IMG/VR virus record: IMGVR_UViG_3300037245_001320
Coordinates: 1 to 64,000 of that record
Reading direction: 5' to 3' (one strand)
DNA length: 64,000 nucleotides
Source: a virus
Shown in pieces: positions 53,552 to 64,000 of the stretch; the first letter of the stretch is position 1; every line of letters begins with the position of its first letter. The notes beneath the pieces were generated by a model. That model worked only from the letters and a program-made list of their open reading frames with translations, did not search any database and was not told where the DNA came from. The translations under genes and the position numbers were made by a program.

Positions 53552-53724
53552 AGGAAGGTTCGCATCTTCCTTAAGGTACAGTAAAATAGAGTCTCAAAGA
53601 ATCAATAAGAAAAACATATAAAAACCTCTTATTAGATCAGAAGTTAGGAAGAACTTTAAAGGATTTACTCTATTACCTTTGAAGTTCTATGCGAAACCTA
53701 ATGGAAGATCTAATAAGAGGTTTT
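53552..53724 (+). ncRNA. Long structured leader RNA before the HNH gene
   Basis: An 18-base perfect inverted repeat AAAACCTCTTATTAGATC (53621-53638) / complement (53707-53724), followed by Ts, encloses a second stem AGAACTTTAAAGG (53650) / CCTTTGAAGTTCT (53676). GGTTCGCAT (53557) can also pair with ATGCGAAACC (53689), which would cross the long stem (pseudoknot or alternative fold). A short AGGAAG/CTTCCT hairpin precedes. The long stem plus T-run could terminate transcription before the HNH gene. Confidence 0.6.
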
Positions 53725-53748
53725 TCATTTAAAAAAGGAATAAAAATA

Positions 53749-54762
53749 ATGAAACCAAGAGAAGTATCGCACAGATACAACAAAGCAAATGTTATGGTAA
53801 ACAAAGAACAGAAAGAGAAGATGTGTTCTGTTTGTAACAAAGTGAAAAGCCATAAGGAGTTCAATAAATCTTCTTCAAACAAAACAGATAGGTTAGCTGG
53901 AAGATGTAGAAAATGTGAACTTTCTCTACGGTATATAGTAAAAGACACACCTACTACAAAAGCAAAGAAATATAATAAAGACCACCAAGAAGAAAACTTA
54001 AAAAATAAGGAAAAGATGTGTGTATCATGTAATATAGTAAAGCCCTTAGAAGAGTATAATAAAGATAAAGCACGAAAAGATGGTAAGCAATCAGTGTGTA
54101 GACCCTGTAGGCAAGCATTTTACACTACTAATGACCAAAAGAAAAAAGCGAGGATGTATGATGATACCCCTGAGAGAAAAGCATACGAAAAGGAGCGAGC
54201 ACAGAGACCTGAGAGAAAAGCTTATTGTAAGGCACTCAGTAGCACACCTAGAGCAAGAAAACAACAAAAAGAGCATAGAAGTAGACCAGAAGTAAAAGAA
54301 AGACAAAGAGAGTTAAGTAAAATGCCTCATAGAAGAGCAACCACCAATGCATACAGGCAAAGTATAAGAGACAGACCAGAAGTTAGAGCTATGAATGCTA
54401 TGAGGGGAATTATACATAACACAGTAGCTAAGTTTGGAACTAAGAAAGAAAATAAAACTGTAGAAATAACAGGATACTCAGCTAAAGAGCTTATATCACA
54501 TTTAAACAAAGGGAAATACAAATGGAAAGACTATATGAAAAACACACATAAAAATATACTCTTCCACATCGACCACATCATACCCATATCCTATTTTGTA
54601 AAGAAAGGAAGAGAGTATTCAAAAGAAGAGCTAAATAAACTTATTTCTCGTGTCAATGATTTAAGAAATCTTAGAATATGGCCAGGAAGATTAAATGAAT
54701 CTAAGCATGATAAAATAGACAGGGATTTAATCAGAGAACATGGAATAGAGGATCTTCTTTAA
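53749..54762 (+). CDS. HNH homing-type endonuclease with N-terminal zinc fingers
   Basis: ATG 53749 follows AAAAAAGGAATAAAAATA; the longer frame from 53689 runs through the hairpin and is not used. The 337-residue protein has two CxxC...CxxC zinc modules (CSVCNKVKSHKEF...CRKC from about residue 26, CVSCNIVKPLEEY...CRPC from about 88). A long basic region with repeated RPE-RKAY / RPEVK / RPEVR units follows. The C-terminal HNH nuclease domain contains FHIDHIIPISYF and a downstream NDLRNLRIWPGRLNESK. Such free-standing endonucleases copy themselves and nearby introns by cutting intron-less alleles. It lies 260 bases after intron-rich terL and none of the four introns carries its own ORF, so it may mobilise them. 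That is inference. Confidence 0.85.
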   Translation: MKPREVSHRYNKANVMVNKEQKEKMCSVCNKVKSHKEFNKSSSNKTDRLAGRCRKCELSLRYIVKDTPTTKAKKYNKDHQEENLKNKEKMCVSCNIVKPLEEYNKDKARKDGKQSVCRPCRQAFYTTNDQKKKARMYDDTPERKAYEKERAQRPERKAYCKALSSTPRARKQQKEHRSRPEVKERQRELSKMPHRRATTNAYRQSIRDRPEVRAMNAMRGIIHNTVAKFGTKKENKTVEITGYSAKELISHLNKGKYKWKDYMKNTHKNILFHIDHIIPISYFVKKGREYSKEELNKLISRVNDLRNLRIWPGRLNESKHDKIDRDLIREHGIEDLL

Positions 54763-57212: not shown

Positions 57213-58385
57213 ATGACAGAATTAACAGGAAAATACACAAGCTGTAAAATATTTACAGACTACACAGAGCAATCAGCTATAAGTCAGGTATATGAGTTTT
57301 TAAATCATCCCGCATTTGAAAATAAGAAAACAAGGTTCATGCCGGACATTCACGCAGGCTCAGGAGCAGTAATAGGAACAACAGTAGAATTAGGAGACAA
57401 AGTTATTCCAAACACAATTGGGGTTGACATTGGATGTGGCATGTACTCAGTTAAGCTTTCTACAAAGGAAATTAACTATAAAGCTTTAGATAGAAATATC
57501 AAGCAGAATGTCCCTTCAGGATTTAACATGAATAACAAACAACAGGCAATTCCTAAATTGTTAGAGCGAGATATTGTATCAACCTGCAAAGAAATTGGGA
57601 TTGAAACTCATAGAGCCTTATTTTCTTTGGGCAGTTTAGGTGGAGGCAATCATTTCATCGAAATTGGGAGGGATGAACAAAATTTTCTTTGGTTAACTAT
57701 TCATTCGGGATCCAGAAACTTTGGCTTACAAATAGCTAAGTATCACCAGAAGATAGCAGAGCAAAATTATTCCAACCCTAAACCTGATTTAACAAATGTT
57801 TCTCCAAAGGAAAGAGAAGCTTATATAAGAAAGTTCAAAGAGACAAGAGTTAAAATACCAAAAGGCATGGAGTATTTAACAGGAGCAGATAAAGAAGCTT
57901 ATGAACTTCATATGCGTATTGCTCAAAGATATGCGTCTGAGAGTAGAAAGATTATGGTCAGAAACATCCTAAAGACTTTAGATTGTGCTGTATTAGAAGA
58001 GATTGAATCAATCCACAACTATATAGACTTCGAGCATGGTATCATTAGAAAAGGAGCTATTTCAGCACAGAAAGATGAGTTGGTTATTATCCCTTGGAAT
58101 ATGAGAGATGGTTTAATTATAGGCAGAGGTCTAGGTAATCCAGACTGGAACTTCTCAGCACCTCACGGAGCAGGAAGAACTATGTCCAGATCCCAAGCTA
58201 AGAAAGAAGTTAACTTAGATGAGTTTAAAGCATCAATGGAAGGGATTTATTCTTCATGTGTTTCTGAATCTACACTAGATGAATCTCCTATGGCTTACAA
58301 GGACCACACTGAGGTTGAGAAATATCTAGAAGAATCAGTAGAGATTCTACATAGAGTTAAACCAGAATATAATTTTAAAGCATAA
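57213..58385 (+). CDS. rtcB: RtcB-type RNA ligase
   Basis: ATG follows TAGAGGAGAAATAAA. The 390-residue protein has the RtcB signatures in order: MPDIHAGSGAVIGTT (about residues 44-58), GVDIGCGMYSV with metal-binding Asp/Cys (about 70), SLGGGNHFIEIG (about 140), HSGSRNFG, and APHGAGRTMSRS, where the His near residue 317 is the guanylylation site. RtcB joins RNA 2',3'-cyclic phosphate ends to 5'-OH ends using GTP and manganese, repairing cleaved tRNAs and other RNAs. It resembles the compact RtcB group of about 390 residues. Phage-borne RNA ligases can counter host tRNA-cutting defences; this is a plausible role here. All key motifs appear intact. Confidence 0.92.
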   Translation: MTELTGKYTSCKIFTDYTEQSAISQVYEFLNHPAFENKKTRFMPDIHAGSGAVIGTTVELGDKVIPNTIGVDIGCGMYSVKLSTKEINYKALDRNIKQNVPSGFNMNNKQQAIPKLLERDIVSTCKEIGIETHRALFSLGSLGGGNHFIEIGRDEQNFLWLTIHSGSRNFGLQIAKYHQKIAEQNYSNPKPDLTNVSPKEREAYIRKFKETRVKIPKGMEYLTGADKEAYELHMRIAQRYASESRKIMVRNILKTLDCAVLEEIESIHNYIDFEHGIIRKGAISAQKDELVIIPWNMRDGLIIGRGLGNPDWNFSAPHGAGRTMSRSQAKKEVNLDEFKASMEGIYSSCVSESTLDESPMAYKDHTEVEKYLEESVEILHRVKPEYNFKA

Positions 58386-62331: not shown

Positions 62332-62512
62332 ATACATATTCATAAAAACTGTAGAGCCTCTATGTGAGAAATGTTGTTTTGTAGAGGATTCTGTAGCTAA
62401 ATGTAATGAGAATATATTAAAAGCTATAAAAGATTGTGGAGTTAATTGTTTGAAGATCCACGGGTATTACTCTGTGGTTGATGATAGTTGTTTGAAGAAG
62501 GGGAATGCATGA
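62324..62512 (+). CDS. Cys-rich small protein, 62 aa
   Basis: ATG overlaps the previous gene. Six or seven cysteines (PLCEKCCFVEDSVAKC, DCGVNCLK, DDSCLKK) suggest metal binding or disulfides. Its stop overlaps the start of the CmoA-like gene by 4 bases. Confidence 0.55.
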   Translation: MNRYIFIKTVEPLCEKCCFVEDSVAKCNENILKAIKDCGVNCLKIHGYYSVVDDSCLKKGNA

Positions 62513-63186
62513 ATTATAGTTGGAGATTTAACAAAGAAGTTGTAGGGGAATTCGATGAACATGTAAGACAATCCGTTCCATTATATGAGGTATTTCATGC
62601 CTCAATTTTGGATCTAGCCAAATATTACATAACCCCCAATTCTGATATTATCGATGTAGGCACATCCACAGGACATTTTATAAATTCCATATATGAAGAT
62701 AAGTTAGATAGAAATAATAAGTATGTAGGAGTAGACATAGAACCTGATATGATTACAGAGTGTAGAGAGAGGTATAAGGATAAAGATATCTCATTTATAC
62801 TATCAGATGCTATTGAAGTGGACTACAAGAATGCAAGTGTGATAACTTTAATATTACTTCTACAGTTTATGAAGAAGCCAGAGAGAATAAAGTTGTTACA
62901 ACATATACACGACTCAGTTAAGATAGGCACAGCTCTGTTTATAGTGGAGAAAATAAAAACACCTAACTTAGATATACATGATATGTATGTGGATGTTTAT
63001 TATGACTTCAAAAGATCACAAGGGTTATCTGATACAGAAATACTAGATAAGAATACCTCATTAAGAGGTGTGATGTTTCCCGAGACTCTACCTGAGATCT
63101 TACGTATTCTAGACTTCATTGGGTTTGACACAGAGGTTAATGTTAAGTATAACAACTTTGCCAGTATAATAGCGGTAAAGAGATAA
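62509..63186 (+). CDS. CmoA-family SAM-dependent enzyme, 225 aa
   Basis: ATG 62509 follows AGAAGGGGAATGC and overlaps the previous stop. The protein aligns by eye with CmoA from end to end: FDEHVRQSVPLYEV, the SAM-binding DIIDVGTSTGHF, YVGVDIEPDMITECRERY, LLLQFMKKPERIKLLQHIH, YYDFKRSQGLSDTEI and GVMFPETLPEIL. Bacterial CmoA makes carboxy-SAM for modifying wobble uridine in tRNA. From memory, E. coli CmoA Arg199 contacts the carboxyl group. The phage protein seems to have Asn there (DKNTSLRGVM), so it may instead use SAM or a different cofactor. It is next to a PP-loop enzyme. Confidence 0.8.
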   Translation: MNYSWRFNKEVVGEFDEHVRQSVPLYEVFHASILDLAKYYITPNSDIIDVGTSTGHFINSIYEDKLDRNNKYVGVDIEPDMITECRERYKDKDISFILSDAIEVDYKNASVITLILLLQFMKKPERIKLLQHIHDSVKIGTALFIVEKIKTPNLDIHDMYVDVYYDFKRSQGLSDTEILDKNTSLRGVMFPETLPEILRILDFIGFDTEVNVKYNNFASIIAVKR

Positions 63187-63195
63187 AGGAGAAAT

Positions 63196-64000
63196 ATGAT
63201 AAGACAAATATTAAAAAACACCATAAAGGCACAATTAGAAATAGATTCTAATCCAGCTCTGTTACTTAGTGGAGGATTAGATAGCCTTTCTATATTATTG
63301 GCCTGCTTAGACATAGGATTTAAACCCCATTGCTATACATTCTATTTAGATAATTATATTTCAGAAGATCTACTTTCGTGTAGAAAACTGAGAGATATTT
63401 ATGGATTTAAGTTAACAGAAGTAGTTATAAATACAAGTGAAGTAGATGTGTACAGGGATTGTATAGATATATTAAGAGAACATGCTCATTTGGAACACAC
63501 GACTAAGCACACAAAAACTTTTGTTCAATGTTACCAGCCCATGTTGTATTTGCTTCCATATATAACAGAGACAACTGTTTTATCGGGTATATTTGGGGAC
63601 ACTCTTCAGTTTAACTCAAGAAAATTTGCTGTAGCAAGCAAGAACATGCCCTACACAGAACTAAATGACATAAGAATAAATAAATTAAAGAATCCCTACT
63701 CCAATAGCTACAAACCTGTTTATGACTTGTTTGCTAGAGAGTATAAAATTTTTAAAGCTGTCTATTTAGAAAAAAATGTACAGGATTACTTTTTAGAAAA
63801 AAATTACCTAGCTTGTATGAAACCTAAGAGGAAGAACTTAGTATATGAATCTTTTAAAGATGAAATAGATAAGTATAAACTATATCGAACACCTTCAGGA
63901 TATCAGGTAAATAGTCATATTAGAGAATGGCATGATGATGCTTTATTAAATAATACAGAAATTAATATAAATAATAACAAAGCTGTAATAGGAATATACA
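63196..64000 (+). CDS. Asparagine-synthase-like PP-loop ATPase (cut by window end)
   Basis: ATG follows AAAGGAGAAAT, 9 bases after the CmoA-like gene. 268 residues are visible with no stop. ALLLSGGLDSLSILLACLDIGFKPHCYTFYLDN contains the SGGxDS pyrophosphate loop of asparagine synthase and related ATP-pyrophosphatases. These activate a carboxylate or a base by AMP transfer. There is no N-terminal glutaminase domain, so it would need free ammonia or a partner. LSGIFGDTLQFNSRKFAVASK fits the conserved GD-x-x-F region after the loop. Probably works in the same pathway as the CmoA-like protein (inference). Confidence 0.75.
   Translation, partial: MIRQILKNTIKAQLEIDSNPALLLSGGLDSLSILLACLDIGFKPHCYTFYLDNYISEDLLSCRKLRDIYGFKLTEVVINTSEVDVYRDCIDILREHAHLEHTTKHTKTFVQCYQPMLYLLPYITETTVLSGIFGDTLQFNSRKFAVASKNMPYTELNDIRINKLKNPYSNSYKPVYDLFAREYKIFKAVYLEKNVQDYFLEKNYLACMKPKRKNLVYESFKDEIDKYKLYRTPSGYQVNSHIREWHDDALLNNTEININNNKAVIGIY

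Follow-up and report, generated by a model that had tools for sequence, protein, structure and literature searches.

Gene content and layout of the locus

The window, i.e. the whole 64,000-nucleotide stretch analysed here, comprises positions 1 to 64,000 of a viral record of 154,018 bases. At its end, and running on just beyond it, lie three consecutive genes on the + strand, separated by gaps of 9 and 4 bp and provided with good ribosome-binding sites (Table 1). Their products are homologues of CmoA, of PP-loop ligases and of C5-cytosine DNA methyltransferases (C5-MTases), and are referred to here as CmoA, CmoY and CmoX. The start of cmoA overlaps an upstream 62-aa ORF by ATGA, and the sequence AAAGGAG lies ahead of both the ATG of cmoY and the TTG start codon of cmoX. 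The window contains 268 of the 278 aa of CmoY (63196..64000), the stop codon ending at position 64032 of the record. An earlier note on this DNA had placed the CmoA-like and PP-loop genes 9 bases apart, which is exact, and the similarity of both to known families is far beyond chance. That note also advised extending the sequence, and it was by this means that the C5-MTase homologue was found, just outside the window.

Table 1. Coordinates of the three genes and the first intergenic spacer
Feature	Position	Strand	Remarks
cmoA-like, candidate Cx-SAM (carboxy-S-adenosylmethionine) synthase	62509..63186	+	225 aa; ATG start; assigned by homology
cmoA-cmoY spacer, 9 bp	63187..63195	+	Part of the AAAGGAG ribosome-binding region; sequence ...gagataaAGGAGaaatATG
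cmoY-like, candidate PP-loop amide ligase, asparagine-synthetase fold	63196..64032 (record)	+	278 aa
cmoX-like, candidate C5-cytosine DNA carboxymethyltransferase	64037-65518 (record, beyond the window)	+	493 aa

Genes for the portal and other structural proteins lie further downstream of cmoX in the record; similarity of the portal protein did not fix the host. No tRNA gene was found in the window by ARAGORN, and CmoB (TIGR00452) had no match in the whole 154-kb record. Elsewhere in the window are genes for a protein of 357 aa, with matches to endonuclease VII and to Lar-like restriction-alleviation families (53689-54762), and for an RtcB RNA ligase (57213-58385). Over the whole window (1-64000), at 31% G+C, CpG occurs at 0.34 of expectation, with no matching excess of TpG/CpA, and GpC at 0.83; these values may reflect a bias of the host, and no motif was read from them.

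Homology and active-site residues of the three proteins

The earlier note envisaged that a carboxymethyl donor and a carboxylate-activating ATPase might act together on a nucleobase, in a pathway that it took to be undescribed. The central idea was right, but the trio matches a pathway since published for Synechococcus phage S-B43 (Yang et al., Nat Commun, 7 December 2025; PMC12783734). In S-B43, CmoA makes Cx-SAM, CmoX generates 5-carboxymethylcytosine (5cxmC) at GC sites, and CmoY, an asparagine-synthetase homologue, carries out ATP-dependent glycine ligation; 5gcxmC was detected in phage DNA, and 5cxmC blocked HhaI (PMC12783734). In structure 8YF3, R350 of S-B43 CmoX, which stands in place of HhaI N304, is positioned on the carboxylate. 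The R350N variant was inactive, and the wild-type enzyme used Cx-SAM as its sole donor, SAM being unused (PMC12783734). The same paper defined CmoX by SPPC plus Arg, with SPPC serving as a filter, and described CmoY-like families with other active-site residues, including glutaminase-bearing ones thought to use ammonia (PMC12783734).

The CmoA of the window matched solved CmoA structures over its full length, with E values of 1e-23 to 2e-25 across PDB entries 1im8 (2e-25), 4gek (7e-25) and 4iwn. It also matched phrog_4752 (E 2e-50) and TIGR00740 (E 4e-40), the latter with a score of 138, under the curated cut-off of 193. The cofactor-binding and signature residues of E. coli CmoA, Y39, D62, G64, S66, D89, D117 and E164, are retained; N90 and N132 are changed, as in most phage members.

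In E. coli CmoA, a salt bridge links Arg199 with the Cx-SAM carboxylate (PMC3663124). The earlier note held that this residue was lost, and that the donor might consequently be ordinary SAM. The alignment confirms the loss, Asn being present at this position, but there is an Arg at E. coli position 203, and the objection to Cx-SAM probably falls away: S-B43 CmoA, in which Glu occupies 199 and Arg 203, synthesises Cx-SAM with a kcat 10-fold above that of the E. coli enzyme (PMC12783734). A comparison of 73 distinct sequences of the CmoA family, taken from the fetched loci, gave 44 with Arg199, 24 with Arg203, five with neither and none with both. As the two positions are one helical turn apart and mutually exclusive in this set, the alignment is most simply read as a shift of the carboxylate-binding Arg from 199 to 203. 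The use of Arg199 as a diagnostic residue for CmoA needs correcting, since many phage CmoA proteins have Arg at 203.

CmoY matched Pfam Asn_synthase above the cut-off (E 2e-6) and phrog_26038 (E 4e-19). An AlphaFold2 model (mean pLDDT 85) most closely resembled asparagine synthetases and beta-lactam synthetases, with LarE and NAD synthetase far behind, suggesting an asparagine-synthetase-like fold. The protein lacks a glutaminase domain and shares many conserved residues with the glycine ligase SpCmoY. Near the active site it has GIFGDTLQF as against GxGADxxYG, and there is an insertion near residues 92-105. These deviations suggest that the amine may differ from the glycine of S-B43; by analogy with S-B43, glycine or another amino acid is most likely.

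CmoX matched TIGR00675 (dcm superfamily), and its closest solved relative is M.MpeI (8c56/4dkj, E about 7e-41), followed by M.HhaI. All catalytic motifs are present, with Cys127 in SFPC, E168 in ENV and QNRER (QxRxR) at 210-214. In motif X, AGRGIVV is found instead of the AGN(S/A) of methylases, so that R477 replaces the Asn of M.HhaI (N304) and M.MpeI (N374) and aligns with the Cx-SAM-selecting R350 of S-B43 CmoX. With SFPC in place of SPPC, the protein lies outside the published definition and also falls outside the published SPPC clade, although its residues suggest that it functions like an SPPC-type CmoX. Multispecific phage methylases of the SPbeta type are expected to carry tandem repeat units in the recognition region. 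Tandem target-recognition-like repeats are present at about residues 345-435 of CmoX (local score 90 vs a shuffle maximum of 49), and by analogy this enzyme may be multispecific.

Distribution of the cassette and phylogeny of the transferase

A search of viral contigs with a single CmoA protein sequence gave no matches, and the CmoA loci in viral contigs came from an alignment-based search. Of the 80 loci so found, 45 had a C5-MTase within the stored stretch, in most cases immediately next to CmoA, and 20 had a CmoY. A check of conserved neighbours, suggested in the earlier note, showed that the pair is found again, next to a C5-MTase, in phages of Staphylococcus, Synechococcus and Pseudomonas; the lack of conservation that the note named as a refutation is thus not what is seen. 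The order of the trio is common to Synechococcus phages S-B43 and S-B05 and Staphylococcus phage F1, and the three genes lie together in Pseudomonas phage PaBG. In Erwinia phage SNUABM_5, CmoA adjoins the PP-loop gene, and an Arg-type CmoX lies at a distance of about 17 kb. One contig (L062:3767-5968) encodes a CmoX N-terminal and a CmoY C-terminal part in a single open frame of 734 aa.

The motif-X residue is linked to the presence of CmoA. C5-MTases beside CmoA have Arg in 45 distinct proteins (the fusion included) and Gly in three, from Staphylococcus; those fetched without CmoA have Asn (30), Met (two) or Arg (one, on a plasmid of which just 0.6 kb of flank was read). Misaligned motif-X entries (L062, L126, L016, L017 and L023) were discounted by eye in these counts; for the table as it stood before this cleaning, the Fisher p of the association was about 5e-16. 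In addition, viral contigs were scanned, blind to CmoA, for the DNA pattern of YERAGRxIV. Two of the seven stretches recovered are C5-MTases with enough flank (L114 and L117), and both lie directly downstream of CmoA. A profile scan added L131, which is also behind CmoA and is on the same contig as a 1.2-kb pattern match (L118).

L114, L117 and L131 are virus contigs with the same pair of CmoA and SF/SYPC-Arg C5-MTase as the window phage. They hold the nearest relatives of its CmoX, and CmoY is absent from the stretches or records examined. Their CmoA proteins are of the Arg199 (or Lys199)/Glu203 type, as opposed to Asn199/Arg203 in the window, which suggests that the cassette has been reshuffled. 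The Asn-type relatives of the SF/SYPC lineage (including L109-L112, L127-L129 and L133) have no CmoA within the stretch read.

A maximum-likelihood tree was built from 38 C5-MTases, among them Asn-type representatives of each lineage. In this tree the four SF/SYPC-Arg proteins make up a single clade (support 100/99), which is nested with seven Asn-type proteins in a larger group (99/95), and the SPPC-Arg proteins cluster with SPPC-Asn proteins. The GFPC-Arg proteins (L028 and L103) sit elsewhere, amongst Asn types, and a Staphylococcus pair with GSPC and Gly represents a further CmoA-linked lineage. Forcing both Arg groups into a single clade was 218 log units worse, and a single origin of the SFPC CmoX and SPPC-type CmoX was rejected (p-AU 2e-36). 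The same one-clade test without the Asn-type SPPC relatives was borderline (p 0.051 and 0.069); it was resolved once four SPPC sequences, two of Asn type and two of Met type, had been added.

The CmoX of the window phage is thus nested in ordinary methylases, and with a single clade rejected this indicates that the Asn-to-Arg change arose independently in its lineage. Overall, there were probably at least three independent origins of this change (SPPC, SF/SYPC and GFPC), each beside a Cx-SAM synthase, together with a Gly lineage, and the CmoX of the window phage is perhaps multispecific. The independent origin of the transferase is what is new here, the three-gene pathway itself having already been published. 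It would provide a clean natural example of convergent cofactor switching via one residue, would extend 5-carboxymethylcytosine hypermodification to a methylase branch unrelated to the SPPC lineage, and could supply new enzymes with different recognition motifs or amines. The published SPPC-based search excluded such a branch by design, and the pathway is therefore likely to be more widespread than reported.

Several further variants were observed. GSPC in motif IV with Gly in motif X (VGGVINQ) is found in CmoA-linked C5-MTases of Staphylococcus phage F1 (L003:8711-9718), of an SPbeta-like sequence (L007:8702-9700) and of L029-L031. The Arg-type CmoX of Erwinia phage pEa_SNUABM_5 (L141, about 30.1-32.1 kb) has an intein-like insertion right after the SPPC catalytic Cys. 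An Arg-type CmoX with an adjacent CmoA is encoded on a Thermobispora bispora plasmid, where it adjoins a phage capsid gene (L135), and on Scytonema NIES-4073 plasmid2 (L139), both being plasmids or phage-plasmids of bacteria; on Azospirillum plasmid p7 (L134), an Arg-type CmoX adjoins a ParB-domain gene. In SPPC C5-MTases of Parabacteroides phage PD491P1 (L137) and Flavobacterium phage Fpv6 (L138), Met (GMSVPP) stands where motif X usually has Asn.

No C5-MTase match was found when ten virus records with a CmoA were searched along their full length, and CmoA alone is therefore no proof of the pathway. A C5-MTase is not nearby in CmoA-bearing L040-L046, L050, L051, L056 and others, nor in L060, L061, L067, L068, L070 and L088. 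In one such group, a ParB-like plus SAM-methyltransferase-like protein (phrog_5475) is encoded near CmoA; in another, the product of the gene directly upstream of CmoA weakly matches a methyltransferase small domain and contains a GNSPS motif. These contigs are candidates for a different Cx-SAM-dependent modification. In MT835562, labelled as a bacteriophage, a CmoA-like gene (L025:5947-6741) lies amid ABC exporter, oxidoreductase-like and TonB-receptor-like genes with no C5-MTase; this region resembles a biosynthetic locus of a bacterium more than a phage.

Proposed pathway, alternatives and comparison with known systems

Gene content, order and spacing, the residue replacements, conservation in other phages, phylogeny and the predicted fold all point to a CmoA-CmoY-CmoX DNA hypermodification cassette, and we consider this assignment very probable. 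Weighing against it are the low identity to the S-B43 proteins, the SFPC of CmoX, the deviations of CmoY near its active site, the lack of a CmoY match around the three nearest relatives of CmoX and the CmoA-bearing records with no C5-MTase match. Homology and key residues suggest Cx-SAM synthesis, Cx-SAM-selective C5 transfer and ATP-dependent amide ligation, and from the biochemistry of S-B43 we infer all of the activities, the identity of the amine and a protective role. CmoA would convert SAM and prephenate to Cx-SAM. CmoX would flip cytosine out of its recognition motif, Cys127 attacking C6, and C5 would receive the carboxymethyl group of Cx-SAM while Arg477 holds the carboxylate. CmoY would then adenylate the carboxylate of 5-carboxymethylcytosine with ATP and join an amine to it, forming an amide. 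The bulky amide on the cytosine could shield the phage DNA from restriction.

The same cassette might end in a different product if CmoY used ammonia, giving 5-carbamoylmethylcytosine, or a non-amino-acid amine. CmoY-like families with differing active sites, and versions bearing a glutaminase, are known (PMC12783734), and one of the fetched loci (L085) starts with an N-terminal CGIVGG of the glutaminase type; the GIFGDTLQF sequence and the insertion near 92-105 also depart from the consensus. CmoY of the window phage, however, retains many of the residues conserved in the SpCmoY glycine ligase, and simple amidation to a carbamoylmethyl group, as entertained in the earlier note, is less likely than the joining of an amine such as glycine because the glutaminase domain found in the presumed ammonia-using variants is absent from it. 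A product made with ammonia or another such amine is thus possible, but we regard it as rather unlikely.

The earlier note left the choice between DNA and tRNA as the target undecided. The bacterial role of CmoA is in cmo5U synthesis in tRNA, and the PHROG family is named as a tRNA methyltransferase, so that Cx-SAM might instead pass to a CmoB-type enzyme of host or phage, with the tRNA base amidated by the ligase. The lack of a CmoB match in the 154-kb record and of tRNA genes in the window argues against this, and it was set aside on the former ground; moreover, the neighbouring gene encodes a homologue of C5-cytosine DNA methyltransferases with a carboxymethyl-selecting Arg in motif X, and close cassettes are proven DNA modifiers. 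DNA is therefore the likelier target, and a tRNA wobble modification is very improbable. Hardly more credible is the combination of an ordinary SAM methyltransferase in place of CmoA, a C5-MTase making plain 5mC and an unrelated ligase. The Asn aligned with R199 would fit such a combination, but the active S-B43 CmoA likewise has Glu for this Arg, with Arg203, and the window protein keeps the CmoA signature residues; furthermore, the CmoX of S-B43, which has the motif-X Arg, accepts only Cx-SAM and not SAM (PMC12783734). Ordinary 5mC methylation was set aside on account of Arg477 and the linked CmoA.

The preferred CmoA-CmoY-CmoX assignment invites comparison with four known systems. The window phage shares with S-B43 the three gene families in the order CmoA, PP-loop ligase and C5-MTase homologue, an Arg at the HhaI N304 position, Arg203 rather than Arg199 in CmoA and a ligase without a glutaminase. 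It differs in that its CmoX has SFPC, lies inside ordinary C5-MTases near M.MpeI and outside the SPPC clade, and is longer, with tandem recognition-region repeats. Identity between the proteins of the two phages is only 25–28%.

The bacterial CmoA/CmoB system for cmo5U in tRNA has the CmoA fold and cofactor-binding residues in common with the window phage. In the phage, however, the carboxylate-binding Arg of CmoA is apparently one helical turn away and the partner is a DNA C5-MTase homologue in a record with no CmoB match. CmoY has the SGGxDS PP-loop and the predicted fold in common with the synthetase domain of asparagine synthetase B and beta-lactam synthetase, but at about 20% identity, without a glutaminase and with partners in DNA modification.

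M.MpeI N374K, which Yang et al. cite as an engineered carboxymethyltransferase (PMC12783734), has a basic residue in place of the same Asn, and M.MpeI is the nearest solved C5-MTase to the CmoX of the window phage. There the residue is an engineered Lys in a CpG methylase; in the window phage it is a natural Arg, encoded in a phage gene that adjoins one for a putative Cx-SAM synthase. If the origins proposed above are correct, the change introduced into M.MpeI by engineering has arisen repeatedly in nature.
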